A program made the translations under genes and the position numbers. Below, piece by piece: positions 18,318 through 40,875 of a DNA stretch of 64,000 bases. Position 1 is the stretch's first letter; each line of letters opens with the position of its first letter. Location of the stretch: contig NZ_LNDD01000002.1 in assembly GCF_002865985.1 (NCBI RefSeq), positions 1-64,000 on the forward strand. The letters are read 5' to 3'. The notes under the pieces were generated by a model. It was not told the DNA's origin, did not search any database, and was given only the letters and a program-made list of their open reading frames with translations. Origin of the DNA: Thermotoga sp. SG1 (GTDB lineage: Bacteria; Thermotogota; Thermotogae; Thermotogales; Thermotogaceae).

Positions 18318-18336
18318 CAGAAAGTGTACTTAAAAA
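18318..18336 (+). repeat. 19-base element, copy 1 (CAGAAAGTGTACTTAAAAA)
   Basis: Identical over at least 20 bases (with the preceding C) to the copy at 29854. Its core AAGT-GT-ACTT has dyad symmetry. First of a tandem pair upstream of a 28-residue gene. Confidence 0.8.
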
Positions 18337-18395
18337 TTCAGAAGGAAACAAAACAGAGAGGTAACCAAAATGCGTTCGTGGGTTATTTGTGATGT

Positions 18396-18414
18396 CAGAA
18401 AGTGTACTTACAAA
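18396..18414 (+). repeat. 19-base element, copy 2 (CAGAAAGTGTACTTACAAA)
   Basis: One mismatch to copy 1, 78 bases downstream of it. It ends 38 bases before the start codon of the 28-residue gene, and no TATAAT-like hexamer is seen between. The position fits a core promoter or an operator. Confidence 0.78.
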
Positions 18415-18452
18415 TTTGGAGGATGAAACTGAAAAGAAAGGAGGTGAACCAG

Positions 18453-18539
18453 ATGAGTACCATCAAAGTAATTTCGGCGATCTTGACAGGTGTAGCAACG
18501 ACATTAGAAATCATCGAAGAGATTACTGAAGAGTCTTAA
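18453..18539 (+). CDS. 28-residue hydrophobic/acidic peptide
   Basis: A very short open frame with a strong ribosome site (AAAGGAGGTGA, 5 bases before ATG). The peptide begins MSTIKVISAILTG; residues 4-20 are hydrophobic or small and could form one helix, and the last eight are acidic (EEITEES). It forms a complete transcription unit: the paired 19-base element upstream and a terminator 27 bases downstream. No homologue is known to me. It could be a small toxin, a signal peptide or an accessory factor of the polymerase system that shares its upstream element. Coding status rests on the ribosome site and the unit layout. Confidence 0.6.
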   Translation: MSTIKVISAILTGVATTLEIIEEITEES

Positions 18540-19100: not shown

Positions 19101-19214
19101 TTCGAAAAATCTGAAGACAAAAAATATCACCATGGGGGGTGTTTAGGAGAATTACACGCTGTGTGACTTACTAATTTAATGATAAAATTATCACAAGAAA
19201 GAAGGGGGTATGAT

Positions 19215-19967
19215 ATGAGGATAAAAATTCATTTTCAAACTACGGAGGCTATAATTCCTCTGAATTACAACTACCTTCTTTCGTCGTTTATCTACAAAAA
19301 GCTGGCTTCTCAGAACGAGAACTTCGCCAAATTTCTTCATGAGAGAGGATACGGAGAAAGATTCAAATTTTTTACTTTCTCTCAACTTTTTTTGGAAAAC
19401 TCAAAGGTGAAGGATGATAAGCTAGTGATATTTCCGGGAAAGGGATGGTGGCACGTATCTTCCCCTGTCGTCGACTTTGTAAGGTATATGTTCTCCTCTC
19501 TATCTGAAAATCCTGTGATAAGAGTTGGAAAGGCAGAATTCGTGGTTCAGTCAATCACAGTTGAAGATTCTCTTCCAGTCCTTTCAGAATACAACTTCAT
19601 CATGATCTCTCCTCTTGTTGTGAGTGTTCCTGAAGAAAAAAACGGGAAACTGGTTCACAGATACCTTCACCCCGGTGAAGAAGGCTTTTACGAGGCTTTC
19701 AAGAGAAACCTGTATAAGAAGTACCGCATCTTTTATGGAAAAGACCCAGAGGGTGATGTAGAAATCATTCCAGATTGGAACTATATAAAATCCAAAGAGC
19801 GTATAACAAAAAGAATCAAGTTGAAAGATGTATTCGTCAGAGCTGTTGTCTTTCCATTTAGAGTAAGGGGTGATAGGAAACTGATAGAGATCGGTTATGA
19901 GGCAGGCTTTGGAGAAAAGAACAGTATGGGATTTGGAATGGTAGCTTTGAAAGGGGGAGAAGCATGA
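19215..19967 (+). CDS. cas6: CRISPR repeat endoribonuclease Cas6
   Basis: 250 residues from ATG 19215 (GAAGGGGGTATGAT upstream; an earlier in-frame ATG at 19179 lacks a ribosome site). Two RAMP folds: N-terminal IKIHFQTTEAIIPLNYNYLLSSFIYKKL with histidine in FLHERGYG as likely general acid/base, and the C-terminal glycine-rich loop GFGEKNSMGFGMV. It cuts the array transcript within the repeat to make crRNAs for all three effector complexes here. It overlaps the CARF gene by 4 bases. Confidence 0.92.
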   Translation: MRIKIHFQTTEAIIPLNYNYLLSSFIYKKLASQNENFAKFLHERGYGERFKFFTFSQLFLENSKVKDDKLVIFPGKGWWHVSSPVVDFVRYMFSSLSENPVIRVGKAEFVVQSITVEDSLPVLSEYNFIMISPLVVSVPEEKNGKLVHRYLHPGEEGFYEAFKRNLYKKYRIFYGKDPEGDVEIIPDWNYIKSKERITKRIKLKDVFVRAVVFPFRVRGDRKLIEIGYEAGFGEKNSMGFGMVALKGGEA

Positions 19968-21106
19968 GGGATCATGTGATTTGTACAGTGGGGGCAAGTC
20001 TTCAAAACAATATCGTTAGGGGTTTGGTCTTTGGTGAGGAAGCCAAGAGGTTTTATGAAGAAGATAGGCTTTCAGAGATATCCAGAATTTTGAGAAAACA
20101 GGATGATCCTCTGAACAACAGAAACTTTGGAGCAGAGATCAACTCTATGGCAAGCATCGTCAAACAGGGAATTGTAGATCAAAGAGAAACACTCTACCTT
20201 CTTGTTTCAGACACTACCGAAGGGGAAAAGATTGGCAAGATTCTAAAAGACTATTTCAAAGAAAACGACCATGAGTTGGACTTTAAAAATGTTCATGTGG
20301 TGAAAGTAGAAGGATTGAACGACAGTGACGAATTCACTTTCAGAAACAAAGGATTGAGAAACCTTATCAGGGAGATGGCGAAGTATGCGAGATTGAATAG
20401 AGAAAGGGTTGTCATCAATGCAACGGGAGGATACAAAGCACAGATAGCCTACGCAGTGGCTCTGGGACAGGCTCTTGGCATACCTGTTTGTTACAGATTT
20501 GATAGATTCAATCACATGGTGGAACTTCCCCCTCTTCCGATAGGCTTAGATCAAAAAATCTACAACGAAAACAAACTGATCTTTACTCTTCTCGACGCTG
20601 CCGGTGAATTAGAACTTTCAGAATTTCTAAAGGTTATTGGGTGGAAAAGCTGGGCAGATGTCCCTGAAAAGATGAAGCTGTTTCTTGATAGAGTACATAT
20701 AGACGGGAAAGACTTTGTTGCTTTGAATCCAATGGGTTTGATCTACGCAGAGAGCGTTGAATGGGACTACTCAGCCATCGATCATCCCATATTCTACTCT
20801 AACAGAGAACCTGAAGAAAAACTGGTTGGCTTTGAAATTCATGGTCAAAAGGTCGTTAAACAGGCTTACAAGATAATTGAAAAGTTGGTTGAACTTCCAT
20901 GGATAAACTCTCTGCACCTGACAGGCAGTTCTGAGAAGAGTTCTGGAAGTTCTATCAGGACACTTGTTCAGGATGGATGTTTAAAGGTAGAACTTTTTAC
21001 AGAAAAAGGAGCACTTTATATGAAAGCCTATTGTAGGTACAGGTCGGATCGTTTTTTGGAAGCTGTAAGATTCAAAGTGGAAAAGGTTCTGTCCGAGAAT
21101 ATCTAA
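19964..21106 (+). CDS. CARF-domain type III CRISPR effector (APE2256-like), possible RelE-like C-terminus
   Basis: 380 residues. The N-terminal CARF domain (1-195) has HVICTVGASLQNNI and VVINATGGYKAQIAYAVALG, the two ligand-loop motifs, and ends MVELPPLPIGLD. Residues about 200-275 look like a small helical/winged-helix middle part. The last ~90 (two helices, then short strands KVELFTEKGALYMKAYCRYRS) could be a RelE-type mRNA interferase as in CARF-RelE (Cami1) proteins, but catalytic residues cannot be confirmed by eye. It should bind cyclic oligoadenylate made by Csm1 or Cmr2. Co-translated with cas6. Confidence 0.85.
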   Translation: MRDHVICTVGASLQNNIVRGLVFGEEAKRFYEEDRLSEISRILRKQDDPLNNRNFGAEINSMASIVKQGIVDQRETLYLLVSDTTEGEKIGKILKDYFKENDHELDFKNVHVVKVEGLNDSDEFTFRNKGLRNLIREMAKYARLNRERVVINATGGYKAQIAYAVALGQALGIPVCYRFDRFNHMVELPPLPIGLDQKIYNENKLIFTLLDAAGELELSEFLKVIGWKSWADVPEKMKLFLDRVHIDGKDFVALNPMGLIYAESVEWDYSAIDHPIFYSNREPEEKLVGFEIHGQKVVKQAYKIIEKLVELPWINSLHLTGSSEKSSGSSIRTLVQDGCLKVELFTEKGALYMKAYCRYRSDRFLEAVRFKVEKVLSENI

Positions 21107-21916: not shown

Positions 21917-23299
21917 TCAGATATCTAGATCTTTTTCAAGGATAATATCCCTATCGGCGATACTAGCTTTTATCAGGGCATTGCTGAGTATTTCTTCAAG
22001 TTCTCTGAAGTTTCCAGTGAAGTTGTGTTTCTCCAGTTTTTTGATAGCTCTCATACTAATGTACCTGACATTTCCTGTATTATAGGGAGATGTGCTCAGA
22101 ACAAAACTGATTAACAATCTAAAATCCTCTTTTCTTTCATTCAGTGACGGAAGCTTTATTCTAAAGAGAAATCTTCTGTAAAGATCTGTTCTAAAGGTGC
22201 CTTTGGTAATCTCATGCTCAAGATCTTTGTTTGTTGCTGCAATAATGATGGTTGGAGCGAAGAACTGTTCTGTTCTTCCAAGTGGTCTGACTTTCAAGTT
22301 ATCAAGATAAAGAAGAAGCTTTGCCTGTGTCTCAGGTGGTAGTTCCCCTATCTCATCCAGAAAAACTACCCCGCCTGAATAGGAGAGAAATTCTCCAGGG
22401 TAGTCCTTCGAGTCGGTAAAACTTCCTTCTGCACTACCAAACAACTCTGTTTCAACGAGATTTCCGAGATTTAGAATAGATATCTTCGAATAAAAGTCAG
22501 AAAATTCCACCTTGTCAATCTTGATGTTTTCATAAATACTTCTTGCTATGAGCTCTGCAAGAAGAGTTTTCCCAGATCCAGTTGGCCCTTCTATGAGAAC
22601 AGAAGGAACAATTCGATAATTTTGCTCAAAATATTTCTCAAAATTAGAAAATTCGATTAGAGATTTCCATTTCTGATCCCCGCTCTTTTCCCATTGATTC
22701 ATTATTTTCTTTCTTTCTTTTAGAATCTCTACCAGTTTAAGTTTTTCATATATTATTCTTAACTGACGTATTATGTATCTTATGTTCTCTACTGTTTTTT
22801 CCATTGCGGGGTCCAGAAACAAGCTCACAAACTTTTTACCACGATCTTCTGCACTGTATTTCCAGTCTATGCTTTTTCTGATTTCTTTCTCTTCGATCTC
22901 ATCTTCTAGAAGATCTCTGATTATTTCCTTTACTCTTGCTTCAAATTTCCCCTTCTCTTCGTATTCTGTCATGAAGTTTTTCTTGGAGAAGATGCCAGAT
23001 ACTGGATAGTCAATAAGGTGGTCTATTAGAGAAGATGGGATGGATTTTTCTACAAAGAACAAAATGCGTTCGAAGTCTTTTTTGTAATGTTCACACACTC
23101 TGGGATCGTCTGTGATGAGTATTATCTTCTGTGATTTTTCAGGGAGTTTTTCATGAACCTCAAATCTTTCCAGTTCCGGCTTTCCCAAATCTTTCGCAAC
23201 TTTTTCTTTGAGGTTTTTGAGGATTTCGCTTACGACGTCTTTCAGATTCGTGTCTCGGAAGAAGATCACTATGTCAACTTTGGAGTTTCTTGAGGACAT
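21917..23299 (-). CDS. Sigma54-activator-like AAA+ ATPase without GAFTGA motif or DNA-binding domain
   Basis: 460 residues. Residues 1-130 resemble a degenerate receiver-like Rossmann domain (VDIVIFFRD, KIILITDD, YPVSGIFSKKNF). The AAA+ core follows: Walker A GPTGSGKT (238-245), ETELFGSAEGSFTDS (283-297), Walker B VVFLDE (311-316), Arg-finger region FRTDLYRRF (369-377) and sensor II NFTGNFRELEE. The loop that contacts sigma54 in true activators (GAFTGA) reads GSFTDS, and the protein stops right after the AAA+ lid with no Fis-type helix-turn-helix. I know of no sigma54 in Thermotoga. It is the last gene of the polymerase operon, so a role in promoter opening for that polymerase is plausible but unproven. 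Confidence 0.82.
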   Translation of the reverse strand: MSSRNSKVDIVIFFRDTNLKDVVSEILKNLKEKVAKDLGKPELERFEVHEKLPEKSQKIILITDDPRVCEHYKKDFERILFFVEKSIPSSLIDHLIDYPVSGIFSKKNFMTEYEEKGKFEARVKEIIRDLLEDEIEEKEIRKSIDWKYSAEDRGKKFVSLFLDPAMEKTVENIRYIIRQLRIIYEKLKLVEILKERKKIMNQWEKSGDQKWKSLIEFSNFEKYFEQNYRIVPSVLIEGPTGSGKTLLAELIARSIYENIKIDKVEFSDFYSKISILNLGNLVETELFGSAEGSFTDSKDYPGEFLSYSGGVVFLDEIGELPPETQAKLLLYLDNLKVRPLGRTEQFFAPTIIIAATNKDLEHEITKGTFRTDLYRRFLFRIKLPSLNERKEDFRLLISFVLSTSPYNTGNVRYISMRAIKKLEKHNFTGNFRELEEILSNALIKASIADRDIILEKDLDI

Positions 23300-23939
23300 G
23301 TTTTTTCACCTCTTTCTTTTTCCTTTCTCCCATGGTAGGATACTCTTCATCCAGCATTTTCTCTAGCTTTTCCTCCAGTTTCGAGGGACTCAAACTCTGC
23401 ACGATTTTAATGTCTTCTAAACGCTTCTCCAAAAAGTGCTCAGCCAGGGATTCTGCACTCTCTTTTTTGGGTCTTCCTTTTGCGGTGAAATAGTTCAAGG
23501 AGTATAGATTTTCTTTGGTCTTTATAACAACACCGTATTTTTTCAGATTCGTTCTTGACTTCCCACCTGAAGTGATGTTTCCCTTTATTTCTTCAATTTC
23601 CTTTCCTTCGTTGAGTTTTTCCGTGATCTCTTCCACAATTTCCCTGTACGGAACCTTTTCATAAGGTTTTGTGAAAAAACATCGATATCCTTTTTTGGTT
23701 TTTAAAATGAAAGCTGCACACTGTAAGGGTTTCTCATACCCCAACGTTTCGATGTTGTATTCTAAATCTCGATAAACAGAGGTTTCTCTTTCGTCATCCC
23801 ATGTGGTGTCCTCTGGTTCTATCTCGAGATACTCATCAGGAGTCTCGTAGACATCAGAGAGTGCGTATCTTCGTTTTTGTTTTTGTGACGTTTTTTGTTC
23901 AGTACTCCTTTCTCTTTTTTGTTTCCTGATTTCAGACAT
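23274..23939 (-). CDS. Hypothetical protein of the RNA polymerase operon
   Basis: 221 residues, highly charged. The first ~30 are basic and low complexity (KQKRERSTEQKTSQKQKRR), then an acidic stretch (DEYLEIEPEDTTWDDERE), a beta-rich middle (CAAFILKTKKGYRCFFTKP) and a helical C-terminus (LEEKLEKMLDEEY). There is no clear helix-turn-helix or zinc site and I recognise no family. It starts 3 bases after the polymerase stop and overlaps the AAA+ gene by 26 bases, so it is made with them. A specificity, clamp-like or sigma-like factor is one possibility; nothing in the sequence proves it. Confidence 0.75.
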   Translation of the reverse strand: MSEIRKQKRERSTEQKTSQKQKRRYALSDVYETPDEYLEIEPEDTTWDDERETSVYRDLEYNIETLGYEKPLQCAAFILKTKKGYRCFFTKPYEKVPYREIVEEITEKLNEGKEIEEIKGNITSGGKSRTNLKKYGVVIKTKENLYSLNYFTAKGRPKKESAESLAEHFLEKRLEDIKIVQSLSPSKLEEKLEKMLDEEYPTMGERKKKEVKKHVLKKLQS

Positions 23940-23942
23940 TTT

Positions 23943-26900
23943 TTATTCCCCCTTCAACTTGTAGGCTGAGAACATGAAGGCTCTGGGATGTTTTTCTTCG
24001 AACGAATCACCTTTCTCGACAAGTTTTACAAGATTGTGCCCGTTTTGATAACTAATGGCCGTTAAAAATCCCCTTTCTTTGAGGAGTTCCTTCATCTTTT
24101 CTTTGTTTTCGTTAGTTCCCCAAGATTTCAATCTGTTCAGGATTTTCCTCTTTCCTTTCTTCATCTCTTCAAAGAGGATTTCAAAGTAGATAAAGTTCAG
24201 GTCTAATTTTTCAAAAATTCCTTTTGAGCTACTAAACAGTTCTCTTATTCTATCTTCATCGATCTCAGTAGAAAGTTTCTTTATGAAACCTACGAAAGAC
24301 TTTGACTCTTCCAGCTTTCTGAAAATGTACGCTCTCACTACAGCCATGTTAAAAGGCTTTCCGGTATGGAAGGTTTCCATTGAAAGCTGCGTTCCTCTCT
24401 CACCTATCGTGTGTCCTGCGTAGACCCCAACGTACTTCACTTCCAGTGGTTTGAACGTTGCAGGATCAAGACCGAAGGATCTTCTGGTGACCTTTCCACC
24501 GATGGGGGAATATATCCTCACCTTCCTGGGGTTTTTTGATATTTCATCCAGGTCGCTCTCTTCTAGAAATTTCCTTTCATCTAGATCGTATCTTCCAAGA
24601 AGGGCGTTTTTCAACAAACCTGTTTCAGAGAGCCACTCGATGTCTTCTAAAGAGTACTCCAGAACACCTTCACCTTCTTCTTCCAAAATAACATCTCCCA
24701 ATATCTCCACAAGTTCTCTGGTGAAATCTCCGGCGTTTGCAACGTGGAGTTTCTTGTCCATAAGGGTTCTTCTTGCCCTTTTAGCTATGTAGTCGATGTA
24801 ATTTTCCAAACTCACACCGTTCAAGAAGTTTTCGTTCAAATGATCTATTTTCTCATTCAATTGGGTATATTGAACTTCGTTTCCACGACATTTCGTCTCC
24901 TTGATTATCTTGAAACTACCTTCGTCCTTCTCTATCTCGTAAATGCTCAGTGTGAGATTTTCTTCGGTAGCTTTTTCAAGAGCTTCTTGTAGGGCATTAA
25001 CAGCCTCATCGAATTTTCCAGATTGTATCAGACCACTGATATACTTCTGGGCTTCCTTTTTGTTTTTTGCTTTTCCAAGTCTGTAGAGTCCATAGACGAA
25101 ATCCTGGTCAACACTAATGGCAAGAGAACCGTTCTCAGGTGTGAAGGGAACGTTTTTAATGGTCATTCTGACAAGTTCTTGAGATTGTTCTATTGGGAAG
25201 TAAACTGCCATTGTGTCTCCATCGAAATCTGCGTTGAATCCTTTGCAGGCAAGTATAGGGAAACCTATTGCCAGTTCGTTCCAAAATCTGAACTTGAATG
25301 CAAGAACACTGTTTTTGTGAAGTGAGGGTTGCCTGTTGAGAAGGACATATTTCCCTTTGGCCCACTTGTTCAGCTCTTCGAGAGAAAGATCTTTTCCAGT
25401 GAATGCCTTTCCAAATTCCGCAGGAAGTAAAACGGTGTCTGGTTCGAGATACGGAGCAGGTACGATCACGCTTCTTCCTGAGTAGAACAACCTTCTTGCG
25501 ATCATTACATTTCTCACATAACCTTCTTTCTTGAAAAGGTTTATAAATTGTTTTTGGTTCTGTTTAGCTAGGGACTCCAAGAAATTGTTGAAATGTTCGT
25601 TTTCAAGAATACTGCTTTTTTCTATCCTTTCAACAATTTTTGTTTTCCCTTCTTCCACTACATAGGAGAAATTCTCTCCGGAAGAATCCTTTCCACCGAG
25701 TTTGTATATGAGAACATTCAATGCCTCGTTCAGTTTAGGTGTTGGATCATAATCTTTTGTATTGCATCTTCTGAAAACTTCCAGGGTTTTGAAAGCATTA
25801 TGCTCCAGAAGGCACCAAAATTCCATCTCACCGAACCTCTGACCACCTTTTCTTCTTCTTCCTTTGAAAGGTTGGAACGTTATAGGACTGATAGGTGCAT
25901 TTCGACCTATCACGTGTATTTTGTCACCCACGCAGTGATCGAGTCTGATGATGTACTGAAACCCGGCAAGTGCTCTTATTTCTCTGCCTTCGAATCTCAC
26001 TCTGTATCTTCCAAGCTCATCTGCACCAAGATCTCTCAACCTTTCTAGGATGTTCTTTCTTTCTTCGTCCGAGAATCTGTAATTCATAGGAAAGACGCTT
26101 TGATACAGGCCTTTTTTTATCAGAGGAGATATGGTAGTTTCATAAAGTTGTCCCAGGTTCATTCGGGAAACTACACCAAGTGGACTCAGAAGGACTTCTG
26201 CTTTTTGCCACCGACCGTCGATGAACACCTCCGGCATTTTTTCATCTGGCAAGATTTTACTCACTACTCCCTTGTTTCCATGTCTTCCCGATAATTTGTC
26301 TCCCACTTTGAGAGGTTTTATCACTTTCAAACGAAATTCGATCAGCATTTCGCTTTCTTCTTTGCTCTGAGCCTTGAAAGGATATTTGGGAGGATGAATT
26401 TTTATGGTTTCAATTACTGCATCGTAGTATCCCTCGTATCGCTTTGTCACCTTTTTGATATTTTTTCCATTTTCGTAGATCGACATTTCGACCAACGTAT
26501 CCCCTCTTCTTATCTTTGAACCTATATCTTTACACAGCCGAACTTCCGTTTTTATTTCGTTCGATTTCTTAGACGCCTCCCATGAAAAAACGATTGTGTT
26601 TCCTTTTTCTTCGATTTCCGACGGGAAAATGCCCATCAGAGTCACTTTGTAGGTTTCCTCAACTTCGGAAAGCATCTTCTTGGCGAAAGACTCACTGACC
26701 ACTATACCATCTTCGAAGTTCAATCCCTTATAGAGCATGTAAACTACAAAGGCATTTACACCTAACTTCAGACTCTTTTCGGCTTTGACGATCGGTTCTT
26801 CTGGATTCTTCAACGGCATGGCTTGTTTCAGATTTTTAGAACCCATCAGAACGCGTGCACCATCTGAGTGGAGTATGAATGGAATCTGATACGTGGCAAG

Positions 26901-27638
26901 ACTGAAGAGATCTCCTTCCTCTATCGAAAGTGTTTCAGGGTTGAAACTTGCATTTTCTGTGAGGGAAAGGAGAAGCCCAATCTTTTCCGATTCAGGCGTT
27001 TCAAAAAGATCCACTCTTCGAACGTGACTTTCATGTGGATAGCGCATGCTCTCTGGAACTTTTTCTCGTGGGTAAACCACTTTCTTTGCCAGAAAATTTC
27101 TTTCAAGATCGTTTAAGTTTTCGAGGTCCTGAAATACGAGTATCTTTACTCCGTAGGTCTTTTTTTCTTTTCTGAATACAGGGCAGAAGAGGGCTCCTTT
27201 TTTACCATAGAGCTTGTTTAAATGAGGTTCTGCTTTTTCTAGCTTCCCGGATGACAAATAGTAAAACAAAGTGGATGCAACTGCAAACAGATAGCCGGGC
27301 GCTACTTTGTGCGCATCAAGATTCATCACTCTGTTTTCTTCAAGTGTTGGTTCTTCCTCATTCTCTTCATCCTCTTCATTTGCCGCTTTGAAATCCGGTA
27401 TTATCACATAAGGAGTCACAAGTTTTTCTCCAAGAGCGATATAAACGTTCTCCTCGTTCGGAAACAAGAGTGGAAATTCGATTGCCTTATCATTAGCGGA
27501 GAATCTGACGATGCACGATGTATCGTTTTCCACTTCTTCCTGAATTTCTATTGAGAACTCTGGATTCACCCCAAACTGTTTTGAAAGGAAATTCAAAAGA
27601 TTCTTCAACACCGTTGTGGAAAACTCTGCCCCTTTCAT
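23943..27638 (-). CDS. Single-chain DNA-directed RNA polymerase: fused, trimmed beta and beta-prime cores
   Basis: 1231 residues. Beta-type blocks in order: HESHVRRVDLFETPE (202-216), LMGSKNLKQAMP (264-275), GLNFEDGIVVSE (305-316), GDKLSGRHGNKGVVSK (446-461), LSPLGVVSRMNLGQ (484-497) and GGQRFGEMEFW (598-608). Beta-prime blocks: YSGRSVIVPAP (719-729), LLNRQPSLHKN (766-776), catalytic NADFDGD (802-808, D804/D806/D808), bridge helix LHVANAGDFTRELVEIL (964-980), trigger loop TIGERGTQLSMETFHTG (1077-1093) and a C-terminal GFLTAISYQNGHN. Only ~100 residues separate the halves, so the beta-prime zinc ribbon, clamp and sigma-docking coiled coil are absent; the beta lobes are also reduced. Its ATG overlaps the CARF-HD stop. 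It should be an active, specialised polymerase, unlike the cellular two-subunit enzyme. Confidence 0.93.
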   Translation of the reverse strand: MKGAEFSTTVLKNLLNFLSKQFGVNPEFSIEIQEEVENDTSCIVRFSANDKAIEFPLLFPNEENVYIALGEKLVTPYVIIPDFKAANEEDEENEEEPTLEENRVMNLDAHKVAPGYLFAVASTLFYYLSSGKLEKAEPHLNKLYGKKGALFCPVFRKEKKTYGVKILVFQDLENLNDLERNFLAKKVVYPREKVPESMRYPHESHVRRVDLFETPESEKIGLLLSLTENASFNPETLSIEEGDLFSLATYQIPFILHSDGARVLMGSKNLKQAMPLKNPEEPIVKAEKSLKLGVNAFVVYMLYKGLNFEDGIVVSESFAKKMLSEVEETYKVTLMGIFPSEIEEKGNTIVFSWEASKKSNEIKTEVRLCKDIGSKIRRGDTLVEMSIYENGKNIKKVTKRYEGYYDAVIETIKIHPPKYPFKAQSKEESEMLIEFRLKVIKPLKVGDKLSGRHGNKGVVSKILPDEKMPEVFIDGRWQKAEVLLSPLGVVSRMNLGQLYETTISPLIKKGLYQSVFPMNYRFSDEERKNILERLRDLGADELGRYRVRFEGREIRALAGFQYIIRLDHCVGDKIHVIGRNAPISPITFQPFKGRRRKGGQRFGEMEFWCLLEHNAFKTLEVFRRCNTKDYDPTPKLNEALNVLIYKLGGKDSSGENFSYVVEEGKTKIVERIEKSSILENEHFNNFLESLAKQNQKQFINLFKKEGYVRNVMIARRLFYSGRSVIVPAPYLEPDTVLLPAEFGKAFTGKDLSLEELNKWAKGKYVLLNRQPSLHKNSVLAFKFRFWNELAIGFPILACKGFNADFDGDTMAVYFPIEQSQELVRMTIKNVPFTPENGSLAISVDQDFVYGLYRLGKAKNKKEAQKYISGLIQSGKFDEAVNALQEALEKATEENLTLSIYEIEKDEGSFKIIKETKCRGNEVQYTQLNEKIDHLNENFLNGVSLENYIDYIAKRARRTLMDKKLHVANAGDFTRELVEILGDVILEEEGEGVLEYSLEDIEWLSETGLLKNALLGRYDLDERKFLEESDLDEISKNPRKVRIYSPIGGKVTRRSFGLDPATFKPLEVKYVGVYAGHTIGERGTQLSMETFHTGKPFNMAVVRAYIFRKLEESKSFVGFIKKLSTEIDEDRIRELFSSSKGIFEKLDLNFIYFEILFEEMKKGKRKILNRLKSWGTNENKEKMKELLKERGFLTAISYQNGHNLVKLVEKGDSFEEKHPRAFMFSAYKLKGE

Positions 27639-29800
27639 TTCACAAGCACCTCCAGTTCGAAATCCGTAAGTTCAGCACTTTCCTTCTCCCTCTCTATTTC
27701 CTCTTTTATAGATTTCATTTCACTTTCGGCGTTGAATTCCGGATTTTTGAAGATCTTTATGAGAAGTTTTTTCGTTTTCTCATCGAATCTTGCAGGGAAC
27801 ACTGTGCTGACCGCTTTGTGTTTATCAAAGTGAACAAACTGCCTTGCTTTGAAAGCAATCTTGAAGAGGATTTCAGCTGTTCGAGAGGATAGTATTCTTT
27901 TTTTGTCACTTTCTAAAAGTTTGTAGAGGTAACTCTCCAATTCCTTTGAAATTTCTTCCATCTTTCTGGATCTATCTGGGCTTAACAGATCAATGTTCAA
28001 ATTGTAGATTTCTTCGATCTTATCCTGGATCGATCGAAACTCTTCCTTTTCCTTTTGATCGATCATAAGCCACTTTCTATACAGATAGTTTATTTCCTTT
28101 GAAGTCCTTTCGACTCTCATCCTCTGATAACTTTCTGTGACGGTTCGATCTGCCTGAACGTCCAGCCCATCGATGAATCTCAACCACTGAGCTGCTTTTA
28201 TGACTATTTTACGTAATTTCTCATCTTCTATCTGTTTTGCTTCATCGACAAGCGGTGATATTTTTATTTTGAAAGCCCTTGTAAGTATCTCCATTGTTTT
28301 GTTCAGAGTACTTTTCTGATAGATTGGTAAATGCTTTCTGTGATAGCGGCATACCAGTTTTATAGCGTTTACTACTTCTTCTTTTTTTTCACCAAAGATT
28401 TCTTTCAAAGATTTGGCGTTTTTGAACCCTTCGTCGATCCCCAAGACGTTGTATTCACCGCTCTCAATAAGGCTCACGGTGAGTTCGTTGTGCAGATCTC
28501 TTATGAGGGAAGGGAAACCTTCCAGAATGTACTCTCCGTCCGATGTTTTCAAGATCGGGTAGACATGACCAAGGTCGTGAACGTAGATGGCAACACCTAG
28601 AATGAAAAGGAACATATCCCTGTATGAAATCCCGTTTACATACTTACCTTCCAGATCTATTTCTTCGGATACTTTTTCAAGTCCCATCGTTCTGATGATG
28701 TGGTATGCTAGATTCATCAACCTTCTACTGTGTCTTTGAGAATGTTCAACGGTTTCAGGGATCTGATCACCTATCCACATGTACGACCAAACACGCTTTA
28801 TTCCCTCTCTTAAGTAACTTTTCAGTTCTTCAGAATCGATTATGTTTATGTACCTTTCTCCGTAGTCGAAAGGGACATCTCGTTTTTCTTTGTACAACTC
28901 CTTTATCTCGTTTAGAGGATAGTAAGAAACGGAACCATCTAGATATATGTCCTGAAGCTCCGAAGGAATATCAAGAAGGTCCATCTGCTCTGCCTGAATG
29001 AATGGAAGAATCTCATCAAGATAGGAATAATCCCAATCCATACCAAAAGGAGGTATTTCGAGTGTTTCTTGACTCCCTTCAAAGGAATAGAAAGCGTTTC
29101 TCCTGCTGTGAAAGGACATCACCGAGGTGATCAAAGTAACTATCTTGTAGGAGGCTGTTGCATTGAAAAGAACCGTTTTATCTTTCTCTCTATTTATCAG
29201 CTCTTTCAAGACTTTCCAAAGGTCAACAAAGAGAGAAGAATAACTTCCTCTATCTGCTGGGGAGAATTCTTTTTTAATTTCTTCCATACTTATGTTGATG
29301 TTTTCTTTGAATACTTCTTTCAACTTTTCAAGATGTTCATACTTTTTATTCTTATCGGGGAACGCTATCAGAACGATTTTATCGATGGCAAAGCCACTTT
29401 TGATTATTCCAACAAAAGAGCTAACTTCTGCTGGAAGCTCCTGTAATTCCAGTTTTGCTTCCCAGAGCATTTTTATTCTTTTCAGATGATTTTCCTCAGA
29501 GAAAATGGGTTTTATATCTTTCAAGGCTTTTTCCATATTTCTCTTAGTAAGTACGGAGGTGCCTATGGGACAGATGAGAGTGGCAGGGCTTTTGAGTATG
29601 TTCTTCGCCAGTTTTATAGCTTCAAAGAGAGAAAATCCAGAGAATTCTTCTTTTTCACCGTCTGTTTCTATAACTATCATATCTTTTTTTCTATAGTCTA
29701 TGGGCTTTCCAGAATAAGAAAAAGAAAATCCAATCTTGGAGGAGTATCTTATAGTGATTGTTACATCAGAAGATTTTGAAAAAACACGTGCGACTTTCAC
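27635..29800 (-). CDS. CARF-HD protein (cyclic-oligonucleotide sensor fused to HD hydrolase)
   Basis: 721 residues from GTG 29800, which has GGGGGG 7 bases upstream. A longer frame to ATG 29914 would run through the promoter region and a copy of the 19-base element and is rejected. N-terminal CARF-like domain: TLICPIGTSVLTKRN (~75-89) and VLFNATASYKIVTLI (~210-224), then LEIPPFGMDWD, mirroring the CARF gene at 19964. C-terminal HD domain: H353/H357 (HSQRHSRR), YVHDLGH (~406-412), LHNELT (~436) and CRYHRKHLP (~484-491), then a long helical tail. It may cut nucleic acid, or degrade the signal. First gene of the operon with the fused RNA polymerase. Confidence 0.85.
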   Translation of the reverse strand: MKVARVFSKSSDVTITIRYSSKIGFSFSYSGKPIDYRKKDMIVIETDGEKEEFSGFSLFEAIKLAKNILKSPATLICPIGTSVLTKRNMEKALKDIKPIFSEENHLKRIKMLWEAKLELQELPAEVSSFVGIIKSGFAIDKIVLIAFPDKNKKYEHLEKLKEVFKENINISMEEIKKEFSPADRGSYSSLFVDLWKVLKELINREKDKTVLFNATASYKIVTLITSVMSFHSRRNAFYSFEGSQETLEIPPFGMDWDYSYLDEILPFIQAEQMDLLDIPSELQDIYLDGSVSYYPLNEIKELYKEKRDVPFDYGERYINIIDSEELKSYLREGIKRVWSYMWIGDQIPETVEHSQRHSRRLMNLAYHIIRTMGLEKVSEEIDLEGKYVNGISYRDMFLFILGVAIYVHDLGHVYPILKTSDGEYILEGFPSLIRDLHNELTVSLIESGEYNVLGIDEGFKNAKSLKEIFGEKKEEVVNAIKLVCRYHRKHLPIYQKSTLNKTMEILTRAFKIKISPLVDEAKQIEDEKLRKIVIKAAQWLRFIDGLDVQADRTVTESYQRMRVERTSKEINYLYRKWLMIDQKEKEEFRSIQDKIEEIYNLNIDLLSPDRSRKMEEISKELESYLYKLLESDKKRILSSRTAEILFKIAFKARQFVHFDKHKAVSTVFPARFDEKTKKLLIKIFKNPEFNAESEMKSIKEEIEREKESAELTDFELEVLVK

Positions 29801-29853: not shown

Positions 29854-29872
29854 CAGAAAGTGTACTTAAAAA
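29854..29872 (+). repeat. 19-base element, copy 3 (CAGAAAGTGTACTTAAAAA)
   Basis: Exact copy of the element at 18318, in the divergent region between the RNA polymerase operon and the DUF1232 gene. Confidence 0.82.
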
Positions 29873-29926
29873 CATGGAAAAATTTTCAGATTGGCAGACT
29901 TCCAGGAAAATCATAAAACGGTTTGT

Positions 29927-29945
29927 CGGAAAGTGTACTTAAAAA
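29927..29945 (+). repeat. 19-base element, copy 4 (CGGAAAGTGTACTTAAAAA)
   Basis: One mismatch to copy 3 and 73 bases downstream of it. It ends 30 bases before the DUF1232 start codon, with only a ribosome site between, so it takes the place of a promoter. Both copies 3 and 4 are followed by CATGGAA. Confidence 0.82.
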
Positions 29946-29975
29946 CATGGAACAACACTAGAAGGAGGTGGTTCG

Positions 29976-30317
29976 ATGGACTACTTAGATAATTACAAAA
30001 GAGACAACATCTCGGAATCAGAACTGAACGCTGCGGCAAGAAAAGCGGAAAAGAAGAAGAATGTGCTCGGCAAGGCTTTTCAAAAGTTCAAAGATCTCTG
30101 GGCACTCCTCGAAGCAGTCATGAGTGGGAGAATGAAGATACCGGGAAAGACCAAGGCAATAATCATAGGAGCTATTCTGTACTTTCTCATACCTACTGAT
30201 CTCATAGCAGATTTTATACCAGCTGTAGGCTACATAGATGATATAACGGTCATTGCAATGGTCTACAACGAAGTGAAAGACCTCATAATGAAAGCTAAGA
30301 GCAAAGGGATCATCTAA
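29976..30317 (+). CDS. DUF1232 (YkvA-like) small membrane protein
   Basis: 113 residues, ATG after AGAAGGAGGTGG. The N-terminal 55 residues are charged and helical; KTKAIIIGAILYFLIPTDLIADFIP and AVGYIDDITVIAMVYNEV form the DUF1232 signature with a hydrophobic helical hairpin. Function of the family is unknown; members are seen next to toxins and in stress loci. It is divergent from the RNA polymerase operon, carries the tandem 19-base element as its only visible promoter, and has its own terminator. Confidence 0.85.
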   Translation: MDYLDNYKRDNISESELNAAARKAEKKKNVLGKAFQKFKDLWALLEAVMSGRMKIPGKTKAIIIGAILYFLIPTDLIADFIPAVGYIDDITVIAMVYNEVKDLIMKAKSKGII

Positions 30318-30318
30318 C

Positions 30319-30344
30319 GGACGCACTCTTGTGTCCTTTTTTTT
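30319..30344 (+). terminator. Terminator after the DUF1232 gene
   Basis: GGACGCA / TGTGTCC stem (one G-U pair) with a CTCT loop and eight T, directly after the stop codon. Confidence 0.85.
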
Positions 30345-30372
30345 CAATTTCATTTAATTTGGATATTTGTTT

Positions 30373-30378
30373 TATAAT
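30373..30378 (+). promoter_or_regulatory. Probable -10 of the csm operon
   Basis: TATAAT 40 bases before the csm1 start, in an AT-rich stretch; the -35 is weak. Confidence 0.4.
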
Positions 30379-30417
30379 TCTTAATAATGAACACCAGGAT
30401 AAGGGGGTGAGTTTCTC

Positions 30418-32583
30418 TTGAGCGACACAGAGAGGGAGGAAATAGTTCTGGGTGCTCTCATTCACGATGTGGGAAAGGTTGTGAGAAGAGCGGAAAAAAG
30501 CGCAGAAAAACATCAACTGGCAGGGTATGATTTCACAAACAAAGCAAAGAAGTTTGCAAAGTTCCAAAAATACATACACTATCACCATGAAAAAGATCTT
30601 AAAGAAAAGAAGTTAGATGATGAAAAGGTTTGGTATGTGTGCTTTGCGGACAATCTGTCCAGCAGTGAAAGAATGACTGAGGGAGGCAGGTTCAACGAAC
30701 ATCGCAGGATAGAAAATCTTCTTTCAAAGATTCCTGAAAAGGAAAACGCAAGAAAGCCTACCTACTTCCCCGTTAAGTCCGCAGACAGAATAACAGAGGC
30801 TGTCACTGAAATGGAAGAAGAAGAGAAAAGTCACATTGATCTTTATGAATCGTTCGTTAAAGATGCAGAGAAGATAACCCTATCTCCAGATGATGTGAAT
30901 TTCCTTGTGTACAAGTATTTCTCCTTCATTCCTCAGGAAACCAAAGTGGAAGGAGACATGGATATTTCTCTCTACGACCATTTGAAGGTCACGGCCATGC
31001 TCGCCATTTCCCTGTACGATTACGCGAAGGAAAATAACCTAACGTTCCGAACTTACGATGAGATGAAGAACTATTTCAAAAATCCCGCTGTGAAACCCTT
31101 CCTCCTTGTGGGAGGAGACGTTTCTGGAATACAGAACTTCATCGCCAGTGTTTCTTCAAAGGGAGCTCTCAGGTCTTACAGAGGAAGGAGTTTCTTCATA
31201 GAAATCCTTCAAGAAGTTGTTGTGGATGAGATTCTTGAAAGAACGGGCTTTTACAGAACGAACGTTCACTTCATAGGCGGTGGTCACTTCTATATTGTTC
31301 TTTCCAACACAGAAAAGGTGAAGAAGGCTCTTGAAGGTATCAGAAAGGAGCTGAACGCCTGGTTTAGAAAGAAAGGGCTTTCACTCCATCTTGTGATGGA
31401 ATACACACAGTTTTCAGCGAATGATGTCAGCGACATGAAAAATATCTTCGATGACATAGTAAAGAAGGTGAACCTGAGAAAACTCAGAATGTACACAGAA
31501 GAAGACCTCGAAGAACTTTTCCCGGACGATCTTTCTTCGATTACAGAAAGGGGAAGTTTTACGTGTAAAGTGTGTGGAAACAGGGTTGAAAAGCTCTTCA
31601 CCCTAGGCGATAGTGAAGAAGAAATAGCCTGTGATTTCTGCAGAGAAATGTACGAACTCGGAAAAGATCTTCTCAAGAAAGATCACGTTTATATCGTTGA
31701 AAAGGAAAATGGAAAGTTCGAGATCTTCGACAAACACTTCGAGTTCTCTAAAAAACCAGAAAAAGGTGCTTACAAAATAAGAGACATATATCAGTTCTCA
31801 GAAAACGAAGAAAACGTCAGAAGAATCCAGGTGATAACGTATTTCGAGCACCAAGAGTTCGAGGAGATCGCAAAAGAAGCACCTGGAAAGAAGATAGCAA
31901 GCCTTCTTGTTGACGTTGACAATCTGGGAAGGATCTTTCGTGATGGTCTTAAAAGAAAAACCCTTTCAAGATACAGCACACTTTCAAGGCTCATGAGTTT
32001 CTTCTTCAAAGAAAGGGTTGAAAAAATTGTCGAGGGAAAAAACGTAATGGTGATCTATTCTGGAGGAGACGACCTCTACCTTGTTGGAGGCTGGAACGAT
32101 GTGCTCGATGTTGCTAAACAATTGAGAGAGGAGTTTTCGAAGTTTACGACGAACGACTTCATCACCTTCTCTGCAGGCTATGTTATAACAGACGAAAAAA
32201 CGAGTATGAGACTCATAAGAGAGATGTCCGAAAGGGCAGAAAGTTCTGCAAAAAGATCAGGAAAGAACAGCATCGCATTCTCGAGCAAAAACTACTATGC
32301 CGTTAGCTGGGAGATGTTCTTCAAAATGTACGAAGTTTATTCGGAGTTGAAGGAACTTGCAACGAAAGTGGACAGAAGCGTTATCAGGAAGGCTCTCAAA
32401 CTCACACAAGAGGACACCCCTCTCAACAGAGCCTTTCTTGCCTACATAGAAGCAAGAGAGAACAAAGAAGAGGACAAAAGAGTGGCCAGTCTGACAAGAG
32501 AAAAACTCGAAGAACTCGGAGAAGACAGTTTGAACGTAATTCTCCAGTTTGTAGATCTTCTTGCAAGGAAAAAGGAGGGATGA
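30418..32583 (+). CDS. csm1: Type III-A Cas10/Csm1, HD nuclease and cyclase subunit
   Basis: 721 residues, TTG start after GGGGGTGA. N-terminal HD nuclease ALIHDVGKVV (H16-D17), first palm GGDVSGIQNFI, a treble-clef zinc site CKVCGN / CDFCREM (~381-412), and the second palm with intact YSGGDDLYLVG (GGDD at about 549-552). It should cut single-stranded DNA and make cyclic oligoadenylate from ATP when the Csm complex finds target RNA. The helical C-terminal domain follows. First gene of csm1-5, spaced 3 bases from csm2. Confidence 0.95.
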   Translation: MSDTEREEIVLGALIHDVGKVVRRAEKSAEKHQLAGYDFTNKAKKFAKFQKYIHYHHEKDLKEKKLDDEKVWYVCFADNLSSSERMTEGGRFNEHRRIENLLSKIPEKENARKPTYFPVKSADRITEAVTEMEEEEKSHIDLYESFVKDAEKITLSPDDVNFLVYKYFSFIPQETKVEGDMDISLYDHLKVTAMLAISLYDYAKENNLTFRTYDEMKNYFKNPAVKPFLLVGGDVSGIQNFIASVSSKGALRSYRGRSFFIEILQEVVVDEILERTGFYRTNVHFIGGGHFYIVLSNTEKVKKALEGIRKELNAWFRKKGLSLHLVMEYTQFSANDVSDMKNIFDDIVKKVNLRKLRMYTEEDLEELFPDDLSSITERGSFTCKVCGNRVEKLFTLGDSEEEIACDFCREMYELGKDLLKKDHVYIVEKENGKFEIFDKHFEFSKKPEKGAYKIRDIYQFSENEENVRRIQVITYFEHQEFEEIAKEAPGKKIASLLVDVDNLGRIFRDGLKRKTLSRYSTLSRLMSFFFKERVEKIVEGKNVMVIYSGGDDLYLVGGWNDVLDVAKQLREEFSKFTTNDFITFSAGYVITDEKTSMRLIREMSERAESSAKRSGKNSIAFSSKNYYAVSWEMFFKMYEVYSELKELATKVDRSVIRKALKLTQEDTPLNRAFLAYIEARENKEEDKRVASLTREKLEELGEDSLNVILQFVDLLARKKEG

Positions 32584-32586
32584 GAC

Positions 32587-32988
32587 GTGGAGGTTTCTCT
32601 CAAAAGCGATTTGATGGATCTTGTGAAAAAGGCAGAGGAGATTGGGAAAAACCTTTCCAACACAAACCAACTCAGAAAATTCCACGGACACCTGACAAAG
32701 ATATGGAGCAAGTACGCTTACAACAGAAGAAAGTACAGTCAGAACCAGCAAGCATTCAAAGAGGATATTCTGAATGAAGTCCATTTCATGAAGATATTTC
32801 TTGCTTATCAGGCCGGCAGGGGTGTTTCCGAAGACATCAAAAAACTCAGAAAAGTTCTTGAACCACTCATAGATGAGATAAAAACGCCAGAAGATTTCGA
32901 GAAATTCAAAAAGTTCTACGATGCAGTTCTTGCGTACCACAAGTTCTATTCTGAAACCGCAAGGAATAGCAGATCAGTGAGAAAGTGA
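32587..32988 (+). CDS. csm2: Type III-A Csm2 small subunit
   Basis: 133 residues, all alpha-helical and basic (LRKFHGHLTKIWSKYAYNRRKYSQNQ; FLAYQAGRGVSEDIKKL), as expected for the Csm2 small subunit that lines the crRNA-target duplex. GTG start after GGAGGGATGAG. Position between csm1 and csm3 confirms it. Confidence 0.88.
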   Translation: MEVSLKSDLMDLVKKAEEIGKNLSNTNQLRKFHGHLTKIWSKYAYNRRKYSQNQQAFKEDILNEVHFMKIFLAYQAGRGVSEDIKKLRKVLEPLIDEIKTPEDFEKFKKFYDAVLAYHKFYSETARNSRSVRK

Positions 32989-33001
32989 GGAGGGATGAGC
33001 G

Positions 33002-33772
33002 GTGGAGAGACCGATTCATGGAAAGTACATTATAAAAGGAAAGATCATCTTAAAAACAGGTCTCAGAGTGGGTGGTCAAGAACTCGGTGTGAACATCGGA
33101 GGAGTTGATAATCCTGTTATCAGAAATCCTCTTACCGGCGAACCTTACATTCCAGGAAGCTCCATAAAGGGAAAGATGAGAAGTCTGATGGAAAGATTGA
33201 AAAATAAGGATCTCGTACCTATAGTTGATGGGAGTACTAAGATAAGTATTCACATTTGCAAAGAAAAAGATTGTGAGATATGTCGCCTTTTTGGAGCATC
33301 TGGAAAATTAGATAATGAGAAGAGGATAAGCATTCCTTCTCGTCTTATCGTAAGAGATGCCTTTCTCACGGAAGAGTCGAAAGACAGACTCCTCAACATG
33401 GAAACAGATCTTCCATATACGGAATGGAAAACAGAAAACGCTCTTGATAGGGTCACATGCAGTGCTGTTCCAAGACCGGTCGAAAGAGTTCCTGCAGGTG
33501 CAGAATTTGAATTTGAAATTGTTTACACTGCAGAGAACAAAGAACATATAAAAGAAGACCTTGAAAACATAGCAACCGCACTTGAACTCGTCGAAGACGA
33601 CTATCTTGGGGGAAGTGGAAGCAGAGGATACGGGAAGGTTGAGTTCAAAATAGAAGAGTTGATCTTCAAGAGTTCAGACTACTACCTTGGAAAAGAAGAT
33701 CCAAAATCGAAAACTCTTAAAGGAGATATCGAAGACTTCAAGAAAGCTATCTCTGAACTTGTGAAAGGGTGA
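33002..33772 (+). CDS. csm3: Type III-A Csm3 (Cas7-like backbone RNase)
   Basis: 256 residues. RAMP fold: KGKIILKTGLRVGG, IPGSSIKGKMRSLMERL, the GASG motif within CRLFGASGK, and the glycine-rich loop LGGSGSRGYGKVEF. D34-region GVDNPVIRNP probably holds the conserved aspartate that cleaves target RNA every six bases. The zinc-like pair CKEKDCEIC is present. GTG start after GAGGAGGGATGAG. Confidence 0.93.
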   Translation: MERPIHGKYIIKGKIILKTGLRVGGQELGVNIGGVDNPVIRNPLTGEPYIPGSSIKGKMRSLMERLKNKDLVPIVDGSTKISIHICKEKDCEICRLFGASGKLDNEKRISIPSRLIVRDAFLTEESKDRLLNMETDLPYTEWKTENALDRVTCSAVPRPVERVPAGAEFEFEIVYTAENKEHIKEDLENIATALELVEDDYLGGSGSRGYGKVEFKIEELIFKSSDYYLGKEDPKSKTLKGDIEDFKKAISELVKG

Positions 33773-33777
33773 TAGAA

Positions 33778-34665
33778 GTGCGCCTTCTTGTGAAAATGAA
33801 TTTCCGGGGTGGTTTCAGGGTGGGAAGGGGGGATGAATCCGATTCCACCCTCCCCACCATTCACTCTGATACCATCTACGGGGCTATTGTGTATCATGCG
33901 TTTAAACATTCGGATAAAGCAGAAGATTTTGCAAAAAATCTAAAGGTTTCCTCCCTTATTTTCCTTAAAAAATCTGACAAAAAAGAGCGCCTTCTTGTTC
34001 CAAAGCCTCTTTCGTACAACGTTCTTGATCCAGAGGATGAAGACAGCAAGAAGGGAGACTTCAAGAAATTGAAAAAAGCGAACTATGTATTTCTGGACAG
34101 TCTTAAGGATTACACATCGATAGAAAAGGCAATGGAATCTGTATGTGAAGAGTCTCCGGTAGAAGTTTCAAGAATACCAAGAAACACTCTGGACAGAGTC
34201 ACAAACTCTTCAAACCTTTATTTTGTTGAGGTTGCTTTTGTAAAAGAAAGCTTCACACCAGTTGTACTGGCGGAGTTTCCAGACGAATACGAGGAATTAT
34301 TCAAGGCTTCTGTGAGATCTCTTGGTGACAGCGGACTTGGTGGAGATTCAACTTACGGATACGGTTTGTTCGATGCAGACTTTGAAGAAGCTCCCTTTCT
34401 TTCGGAAGAAGGAAAATACTATCTTTCTCTGTCTCTTTTTATACCTTCTGTTGAAGAAAGAAGAAGATTGAACGAAGGCTTCTACAAAGTGGTAAGAAGA
34501 AGAGGCGTGAAAAAAGACGTTATGAAGGTTAAAAAAGAACTCCACTATATCCAAGAAGGTTCCGTATTTCCTTTCAAACCTGTGGGCCGTGGGGTGTTGA
34601 AGATAGAAGATTATTTCGTTCAGACCTCACCACTCTGTGTGGCATTCGGTGGTGATGCATCATGA
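33778..34665 (+). CDS. csm4: Type III-A Csm4 (Cas5-like)
   Basis: About 295 residues. RAMP protein with MNFRGGFRVGRG, SDTIYGAIVYHAF and the glycine-rich GDSGLGGDSTYGYGLF; it binds the 5' handle of the crRNA and docks to Csm1. Start chosen at GTG 33778 because AAAGGGTGAT then has normal spacing; GTG 33769, which overlaps the csm3 stop, is the alternative. Overlaps csm5 by 4 bases. Confidence 0.9.
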   Translation: MRLLVKMNFRGGFRVGRGDESDSTLPTIHSDTIYGAIVYHAFKHSDKAEDFAKNLKVSSLIFLKKSDKKERLLVPKPLSYNVLDPEDEDSKKGDFKKLKKANYVFLDSLKDYTSIEKAMESVCEESPVEVSRIPRNTLDRVTNSSNLYFVEVAFVKESFTPVVLAEFPDEYEELFKASVRSLGDSGLGGDSTYGYGLFDADFEEAPFLSEEGKYYLSLSLFIPSVEERRRLNEGFYKVVRRRGVKKDVMKVKKELHYIQEGSVFPFKPVGRGVLKIEDYFVQTSPLCVAFGGDAS

Positions 34666-40729: not shown

Positions 40730-40748
40730 CGGAAAATGTGCCTAAAAA
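40730..40748 (+). repeat. Degenerate fifth copy of the 19-base element
   Basis: CGGAAAATGTGCCTAAAAA differs from copy 4 (29927) by three transitions in 19 bases and is also followed by an AT-AGAAACA tail like CATGGAACA there. It is 128 bases upstream of cas8b, first gene of the I-B/III-B operon. Confidence 0.45.
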
Positions 40749-40875
40749 TATAGAAACAAAGACGAAAACGAAAAACTTCAAAGACTGGGTGGAATTGTTC
40801 GAAAACGAAAGGTTAAAACAGCAAACAATACAAACAGAGCTGGTTCATTGAAAAGAATTTACTGGGGGGATCGAG

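Follow-up and report, generated by a model that had tools for sequence, protein, structure and literature searches.

Links from CRISPR to transcription that are known so far redirect the host polymerase, either through a sigma factor or through a CARF regulator with a helix-turn-helix (HTH) domain. The type III links Csa3, CalpL-CalpS and CASP-sigma all use the host enzyme (PMC9704534, PMC11417357, PMC10028731). In type III-E CASP/Craspase (PMC10028731) and in CalpL-CalpT-CalpS (PMC11417357, PMC11229360), proteolysis frees an extracytoplasmic function (ECF)-type sigma factor for the host RNA polymerase (RNAP). Other unusual polymerases come from phages and include YonO of prophage SPbeta, a phage late-gene polymerase without most domains of multisubunit RNAPs (PMC5467207), and the phage-encoded non-virion RNAPs (nvRNAPs) of AR9 and phiKZ, which have four to five chains (PMC9209446, PMC7598289). 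Here we describe an operon from a CRISPR island of Thermotoga sp. SG1 that encodes a single-chain RNAP, a CARF-HD protein, a 221-aa protein and an AAA+ ATPase, together with a 26-bp element, AAAAAGTGTnnnTAnnAAnnTTGGA, found before genes in the islands that carry this RNAP. We think that the unit probably encodes a complete sigma54-like transcription machine, private to defence genes, which the CARF-HD protein connects to type III signalling.

All coordinates refer to the window, the 64,000-nt stretch of DNA that was analysed (GCF_002865985.1, NZ_LNDD01000002.1, positions 1-64,000, forward strand). The four genes lie on the minus strand and encode the CARF-(CYTH)-HD protein (27635..29800, 721 aa), the RNAP (23943..27638, 1231 aa, of which ~625 aa are beta-like and ~605 aa beta'-like), the 221-aa protein (23274..23939) and the AAA+ protein (21917..23299). 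As the first-pass annotation had proposed, they overlap or touch and make up one unit: the CARF-HD gene ends at 27635 and the RNAP gene starts at 27638, giving a 4-bp ATGA overlap, a 3-base gap separates the end of the RNAP gene (23943) from the start of the 221-aa gene (23939), and the latter shares 26 bp with the AAA+ gene (23274-23299). For the CARF-HD gene, the GTG start at 29800 given in the first-pass annotation, which sits behind GGGGGG, is likelier than an extension of the open reading frame to 29914. The island also carries csm (type III-A), cmr (type III-B) and type I-B cas genes and a CRISPR array.

The polymerase chain matches the Pfam families RNA_pol_Rpb2_6 (6e-40) and Rpb1_2 (2.6e-21), as well as Rpb1_5, and carries GDKLSGRHGNKG at 446, NADFDGD at 802, a bridge-helix segment at 956 and GTQLSMETFH at 1082. 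The catalytic motifs are intact, and with NADFDGD, GDKLSGRHGNKG and a trigger-loop segment, also conserved, on the same polypeptide, it has both double-psi barrels of a two-barrel (multisubunit-type) RNAP. Residues 290-649 align with 846-1247 of the organism's own RpoB at 31 per cent identity, while residues 696-854 and 1023-1093 correspond to 616-806 and 1271-1345 of its own RpoC (31-37 per cent). Preceding the aligned regions, RpoB has some 690 residues and RpoC some 550 that are largely without a counterpart in the chain; at 1231 residues against 1267 for RpoB plus 1690 for RpoC, the chain has mostly lost the N-terminal beta lobes and the N-terminal part of beta', or holds them in unrecognisable form. 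A separate canonical rpoB/rpoC pair is encoded elsewhere in the genome, and the RNAP falls short of the cut-offs of the canonical families (178 bits against 801 for TIGR02013 and 121 against 963 for TIGR02386). As a family, it is absent from PADLOC and NCBIfam. Insertions enlarge the RNAP to 1414-1525 aa in some families (L146, L147 and L137, from G067, G077 and G053).

Phages are the other known source of multisubunit-type RNAPs that are reduced or consist of a single chain (YonO, PMC5467207; nvRNAPs of jumbo phages, PMC7598289), and the operon might accordingly be a captured transcription module of a phage or mobile element, selfish or a remnant, that came to lie in a defence island by chance. 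We regard this as very improbable. The best matches of the RNAP are bacterial beta and beta', not phage nvRNAPs; no relative with the family-specific patterns was present in IMG/VR viral contigs, and tblastn of phage and plasmid records returned only canonical RpoB/RpoC or nvRNAPs at ~30 per cent identity. The RNAP is also conserved across Thermotogota beside cas genes.

The comparison set comprised 103 Thermotogota genomes (labelled G000 etc., with loci labelled L037 etc.). A profile of a family-specific RNAP stretch scored 115-151 bits for this family and 60-71 bits for canonical RpoB, and recovered the RNAP in twenty-six genomes; G012 (81.5 bits) was added by its full-length match and partner genes, bringing the count to 27. 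The RNAP, a 221-aa-type protein and the AAA+ protein form an invariant core, in the same order and on the same strand, in these 27/103 genomes, the order having been read directly in most of the 27 and being interrupted by contig ends in a few. Because this order recurs so widely, the four-gene unit is not a chance cluster. The conserved core contains no replication gene, so the replication module that had been offered as an alternative in the first-pass annotation lacks support. Outside Thermotogota, no core was found in scans that relied on short exact peptide patterns or on tblastn of phage and plasmid records, which are blind to distant relatives. A pattern scan built from a single RNAP sequence gave no match, whereas family-specific stretches did work. 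Counting homologues by the 221-aa protein was misleading, as it returned five genomes and implied that the CARF-HD protein occurs mostly without the RNAP, a picture that the RNAP profile reversed. An 866-aa neighbour in G058 and G060, a glycosyltransferase, was rejected as a component and counted as flanking sequence. The RNAP core that diverges most (970 bits; L154, G012:C17) adjoins a type I-B cas operon, which is complete, and its genome has no Cas10.

Four copies of the 26-bp element lie on the plus strand of the window. Two are upstream of the DUF1232-csm operon, at 29855..29880 (AGAAAGTGTACTTAAAAACATGGAAA) and at 29928..29953 (GGAAAGTGTACTTAAAAACATGGAAC, then GGAGG and ATG), the second being 22 bp before the DUF1232 start codon. 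The others form a tandem pair after a terminator, the first at 18319..18344 (AGAAAGTGTACTTAAAAATTCAGAAG) and the second, directly before a tiny peptide gene, at 18397..18422 (AGAAAGTGTACTTACAAATTTGGAGG). A repeat search found an identical 17-bp string at 18320, 29856 and 29929, with near-copies at 18398 and 40732. The last of these belongs to a degenerate element with three mismatches (40731..40756, plus strand), 120 bp upstream of the type I-B gene cas8b; the exact core stands directly before the orthologous cas8b in G091 and G094. An orthologous slot between a helicase gene and cas6 holds an element pair in G095 and G092.

Exact GAAAGTGTACNTNNAAA has ten matches in five RNAP genomes of the same order (four in G000, four in G095 and two in G060), all in RNAP/cas islands, and none outside the islands in those five whole genomes. 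The other 98 Thermotogota genomes have thirteen matches, of which four fall within CRISPR loci of sister genomes (one in G091, two in G092, one in G094) and the remainder inside coding sequence; the coding-sequence matches L109-L116 and L120 were taken as chance. A position weight matrix (PWM) built from the copies of the window's own lineage found lineage-specific versions in independent loci, scoring above every shuffle (L098, L100, L102, L108; G025, G030, G020). These versions are AAAAAGTGTGCATA in G101, AAAAAGTGTGTGTA in G002, GGAAAGTGTATACA / GGAAAGTGTGTATA in G097, AAAAAGTGTGATTATA in G025 and G030, and AAAAAGTGTAAATGTA in G020. The lineage core AAAAGTGTGATTA occurs five times in G025, five times in G030 and three times in G008, always near the island, and was not found in eight related genomes.

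Across 32 aligned instances, information is confined to the 26 bp, with 55 bp upstream and 44 bp downstream being random, and the element points towards its gene wherever a gene can be assigned. In several loci (G101 cas8, G025 DarT and a G025 57-aa gene) the Shine-Dalgarno (SD) sequence starts at element column 22-27, and the transcript must therefore begin within the element or at its end. Sites resembling sigma-A promoters are not enriched upstream of the elements (best 12-mer 7.2 observed, against 7.45 in shuffles), and no sigma-A promoter was found upstream of them in two regions of the window. Because the conserved stretch ends where the element does, no upstream sigma-A promoter is present and ribosome-binding sites start inside it or directly after it, the element is probably the core promoter of the private RNAP. 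Alternatively, the element could be an operator or an RNA leader signal on which a regulator acts, with the host sigma-A polymerase transcribing these genes and the private RNAP doing other work such as copying or amplifying RNA. Some copies are indeed 120-210 bp from the gene start, and the copies upstream of cas8b persist in G091 and G094, which have no RNAP. The lack of both conservation and sigma-A enrichment upstream argues against this, as do the SD positions in several loci, which leave no space for a later start site, and the restriction of exact own-lineage copies to RNAP islands. We therefore find an operator or leader function distinctly unlikely, and think it very likely that this is a private polymerase that reads private promoters.

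Other features of the element's distribution fit this reading less well. The PWM did not find the element in about half of the RNAP loci, so that it is either more divergent there or not universal. Three same-genus genomes without the RNAP keep copies (G091, G092, G094); the cas8b copies of G091 and G094 (L117, L119) are either relics or a hint of another reader of the element. G024 has three AAAAGTGTGATTA copies, and the RNAP was not found in its 420 contigs. The enlarged RNAPs of G067, G077 and G053 (L146, L147, L137) are accompanied by no element copy that the present matrix detects, and a different promoter sequence may serve there. G092, which has no RNAP operon, carries two perfect element-plus-tiny-peptide units (L162, G092:C1:690000-709999). 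In this genome cas10 has been cut down to HD and Csm1_B, and csm2-5 have disappeared; the locus therefore looks recently decayed.

RtcR is a CARF-containing sigma54 activator. The AAA+ protein matches Pfam Sigma54_activat (7.4e-34) and has RtcR as its best NCBIfam match (5e-47), making it an activator of the NtrC/RtcR type. Its Walker A and B motifs and arginine-finger region (DL[YF]xRF) are conserved in thirteen homologues, as in the AAA+ domains of enhancer-binding proteins. In all 13 of 13 homologues the GAFTGA loop is replaced by G[AS][FY]T[DG][AS], which reads GSFTDS in the window protein. No C-terminal HTH was found among these thirteen homologues, and all the sequences that reach the C-terminus stop after the AAA+ lid. 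Sigma54 itself (PF04552) has no match in G000, G095 and G097, all of which carry the operon, so there the AAA+ protein must act on something other than sigma54.

The 221-aa protein is a candidate for that partner and for a private initiation factor. Its family has 22 homologues, always encoded between the RNAP and the AAA+ protein, with a basic N-terminal helix, an acidic disordered linker, a core of a beta-hairpin and an HTH-like part, and a C-terminal helical bundle. It belongs to no Pfam family and, by the curated PF04552 (Sigma54_DBD) test, is not a sigma54; its profile gave nothing significant against PDB sequences, and a BFVD search gave no usable match. The AlphaFold2 (AF2) model has a predicted local distance difference test (pLDDT) score of 79, an earlier model from four sequences having been poor (69). 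In Foldseek, the first PDB match of the model is sigma54 in an open complex, and two further sigma54 chains are in the top 19 (E 0.9-5); against Aquifex sigmaN the model has a VIA Z of 5.2, a level that is not significant alone. By hhalign, the family matched 31 Thermotogota sigma54 proteins with E 0.012 and a score of 19.8, compared with 10.1 +/- 1.8 for 150 column shuffles, 9.0 for the reversed profile and 12-14 for decoys. This alignment to the sigma54 DNA-binding domain (DBD) is collinear over the beta-hairpin, the helices and the RpoN box (SRTNLKKYGV beside SRRGVTKYRK).

Several points count against so close a parallel with sigma54. Members of the 221-aa family differ greatly from one another (mean column identity 24 per cent), and the likeness to sigma54 is weak, with an hhalign probability of 3.6 per cent despite the E of 0.012 and a Foldseek E of 0.9. 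In addition, structural and sequence alignments place the protein on different parts of sigma54, and for this reason homology is suggested but not established. Overall, the balance tilts towards sigma54-like initiation, in which the 221-aa protein would act as the factor and the AAA+ protein as its activator.

The CARF-HD protein combines a CARF domain (Cas_APE2256, E 9e-9) with HD-CE (2.8e-8) in Pfam, and corresponds over its full length to PADLOC CARF7--CARF_CYTH_HD (1082 bits, residues 27-759 of the longest open reading frame, E=0). The CARF lysine and the HD histidines and aspartates are kept in nine relatives, leaving the HD phosphohydrolase site intact. From these domains and residues we predict that it is a sensor of cyclic oligoadenylate (cOA). 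It occurs in twenty genomes, and all 20/20 also have the RNAP (hypergeometric P = 9e-16, a value that is optimistic because the genomes are related). Of the 21 RNAP genomes in which a CARF gene is linked, 19 have strong Cas10 matches, against 0/6 of those without CARF (P = 9e-5); in the two exceptions (G027, G055), which are drafts, the CARF-HD gene lies at the edge of a contig. The CARF-linked RNAP loci thus have the genetic linkage to Cas10 systems expected of type III cOA effectors.

The CARF gene itself lies outside the invariant core. The first-pass annotation had named RNAP operons without the CARF gene and type III systems as what would speak against its proposal, and gene-neighbourhood mining identified them in 6/27 genomes (G012, G023, G054, G058, G060, G065). 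Four of the six have the core beside type I-B or cas6 genes instead (G060, G012, G023, G054). This weighs against a uniform role for the signal: with neither CARF nor type III in these six, cOA control cannot be general. The core could then be a general transcription unit for CRISPR and defence, sharing its island with a CARF-HD protein that is a separate cOA effector or a ring-nuclease-like off-switch, and there would be no cOA control of the polymerase. Besides the CARF-less genomes, the variable position of the CARF-HD gene (upstream, downstream, divergent, up to ~50 kb away) agrees with such a separation, and with its HD site intact the protein may work as an enzyme alone. Yet CARF-HD was never seen without the RNAP among the 103 genomes, though Cas10 is common without it. 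Moreover, a CARF gene is part of the RNAP operon in eight genomes: CARF-HD is the first gene in G000, G095 and G055, a different CARF gene takes this place in G039, G042 and G045, and CARF-HD lies downstream of the AAA+ gene on the same strand in G067 and G008. In G008 the CARF-HD gene also carries the element itself. We consider a fully separate CARF-HD protein unlikely, and control of the machine by cOA through CARF-HD to have somewhat better than even prospects. Since the core lies beside CARF and Cas10 in some genomes and beside type I-B or cas6 in others, the module appears to be wired to type III where type III exists. The earlier claim that the unit ties type III signalling to transcription by a dedicated polymerase, with the AAA+ protein as remodeller, thus fits the comparative data, both in the constant company of CARF-HD and RNAP and in the private promoter-like elements before csm, cas and toxin genes; its CARF gene is the part that does not belong to the invariant core. 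That claim was also incomplete, having missed the promoters, the sigma54-like 221-aa protein and the regulon.

The genes behind the element include csm operons (G000, G095), type I cas8 (G101) and cas8b (G091, G094), cas6 and CARF-HD (G008), DarT with an adjoining macro-domain partner (G025, G030), DEAD-box helicases of 1031 and 1050 aa (G025, G020) and a lipoprotein-like gene (G002). The proposed target operon in the window, assigned by domain matches, runs from DUF1232 through cas10/csm1 to csm2-csm5 (type III-A; 29976..35786, plus strand), and the element stands at the equivalent place upstream of csm in G095. The DUF1232 gene (29976-30317) heads this operon directly behind the element, and a relative follows the peptide unit in G092.

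Tiny one-helix peptides are encoded behind the element in six genomes, measuring 28 aa in the window, 30 and 39 aa in G092, 37 aa in G060, 50 aa in G008 and 49 aa in G025 and G030. The hydrophobic 28-aa peptide of the window (MSTIKVISAILTGVATTLEIIEEITEES; 18453..18539, plus strand) has the SD AAGGAGGTG and is followed by an intrinsic terminator (18566-18596), so that element pair, SD, reading frame and terminator make an isolated transcription unit. The combination of tiny hydrophobic peptides and DarT suggests a suicide or dormancy arm. In G095 the element is followed by a gene for an 83-aa protein that resembled RelE/DUF4258 on visual inspection but had no Pfam match, and its reading as a toxin was dropped. 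At the edge of the island, in G000 as in G092 and G095, the peptide unit comes after a UPF1/DNA2-type helicase gene (window 16306-18258). The same island has genes for cas6 and a Csm6-like CARF-DUF2103 protein (19179..21106, plus strand; domain and PADLOC matches). In G060 (L042:5839-7280) and in the corresponding part of L037 (G058), a conserved operon follows an element pair located where the AAA+ gene ends; its three small proteins (~107, 116 and 105 aa) have no Pfam match and are possible effectors. The gap between the RNAP and the type I cas operon (L141 5457-7900 in G025; L143 in G030; L100 2943-8159 in G002) is filled by DarT/macro-domain genes and by series of small genes, and several of these genes have an element of their own. 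A DarT gene is also near the RNAP in G053.

Returning to our preferred reading of a private machine, the trimmed single-chain RNAP would be guided by the 221-aa protein, as a miniature sigma54-like factor, to the 26-bp promoter, with the start site near the promoter's 3' end. RNAP and factor on the element would form a closed complex, which the AAA+ protein, with its GAFTGA-like loop, would open using ATP, as in sigma54 systems. In type III islands, viral RNA would cause Cas10 to make cOA, which CARF-HD would sense; CARF-HD would then determine how active the machine is, either directly or by keeping the signal in check. The intact HD site might break the signal down, in which case CARF-HD would be a sensor that carries its own timer. 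The machine would express CRISPR operons, toxins (DarT), helicases and tiny membrane peptides even after a phage has taken over the host polymerase, and the benefit would lie in resisting that takeover. The chances seem evenly balanced for the fullest version, in which Thermotogota carry a second complete sigma54-like apparatus (RNAP, mini sigma54 relative, AAA+ protein and private promoters) as a switchable defence regulon, activated by cOA via CARF-HD, that transcribes immune and suicide genes once a phage disables the host polymerase.

If true, a polymerase that the cell itself encodes and keeps for immunity would introduce a new principle: defence and suicide genes could be transcribed without relying on the enzyme that phages target. 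The system would also offer a minimal, purifiable and thermostable model of sigma54-type, AAA+-driven promoter opening, explain the role of an orphan CARF family, and turn everything behind the 26-bp element, including the recurring tiny membrane peptide, into a list of candidate effectors. The open literature, including the 2025 CRISPR classification (PMC12669027), makes no mention of such an RNAP, and we found no description there of a whole second transcription machine for antiviral defence. The CARF-HD protein of the window belongs to the known PADLOC family CARF7--CARF_CYTH_HD, whose fixed partnership with an RNAP operon is absent from the libraries and the open literature.

Like YonO, the Thermotoga RNAP has the two-barrel active site of multisubunit RNAPs in one polypeptide and would transcribe a dedicated operon. 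It differs in being chromosomal, much nearer to bacterial beta/beta' (31-37 per cent over the core), tied to CRISPR and always accompanied by a 221-aa-type protein and an AAA+ protein. With the AR9 and phiKZ enzymes it shares a non-canonical RNAP, a dedicated promoter-recognition subunit (here, putatively, the 221-aa protein) and short private promoters, but those RNAPs have neither an AAA+ activator nor a CRISPR link. The likeness to sigma54 (RpoN) and its enhancer-binding proteins, especially RtcR (CARF-AAA+-HTH), lies in an AAA+ protein of the RtcR/NtrC family with a GAFTGA-like loop, a partner resembling the sigma54 DBD and a predicted CARF sensor. In the Thermotoga system, however, the AAA+ protein lacks the HTH and has another N-terminal domain, CARF is in a separate protein, the partner has no recognisable core-binding domain, the polymerase is not that of the host, and the promoter is not of the -24/-12 type. 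Finally, CASP/Craspase and CalpL-CalpT-CalpS likewise lead from type III recognition to a transcriptional response at promoters within their own locus, whereas the Thermotoga locus encodes a whole private polymerase, with AAA+-type activation and no protease.

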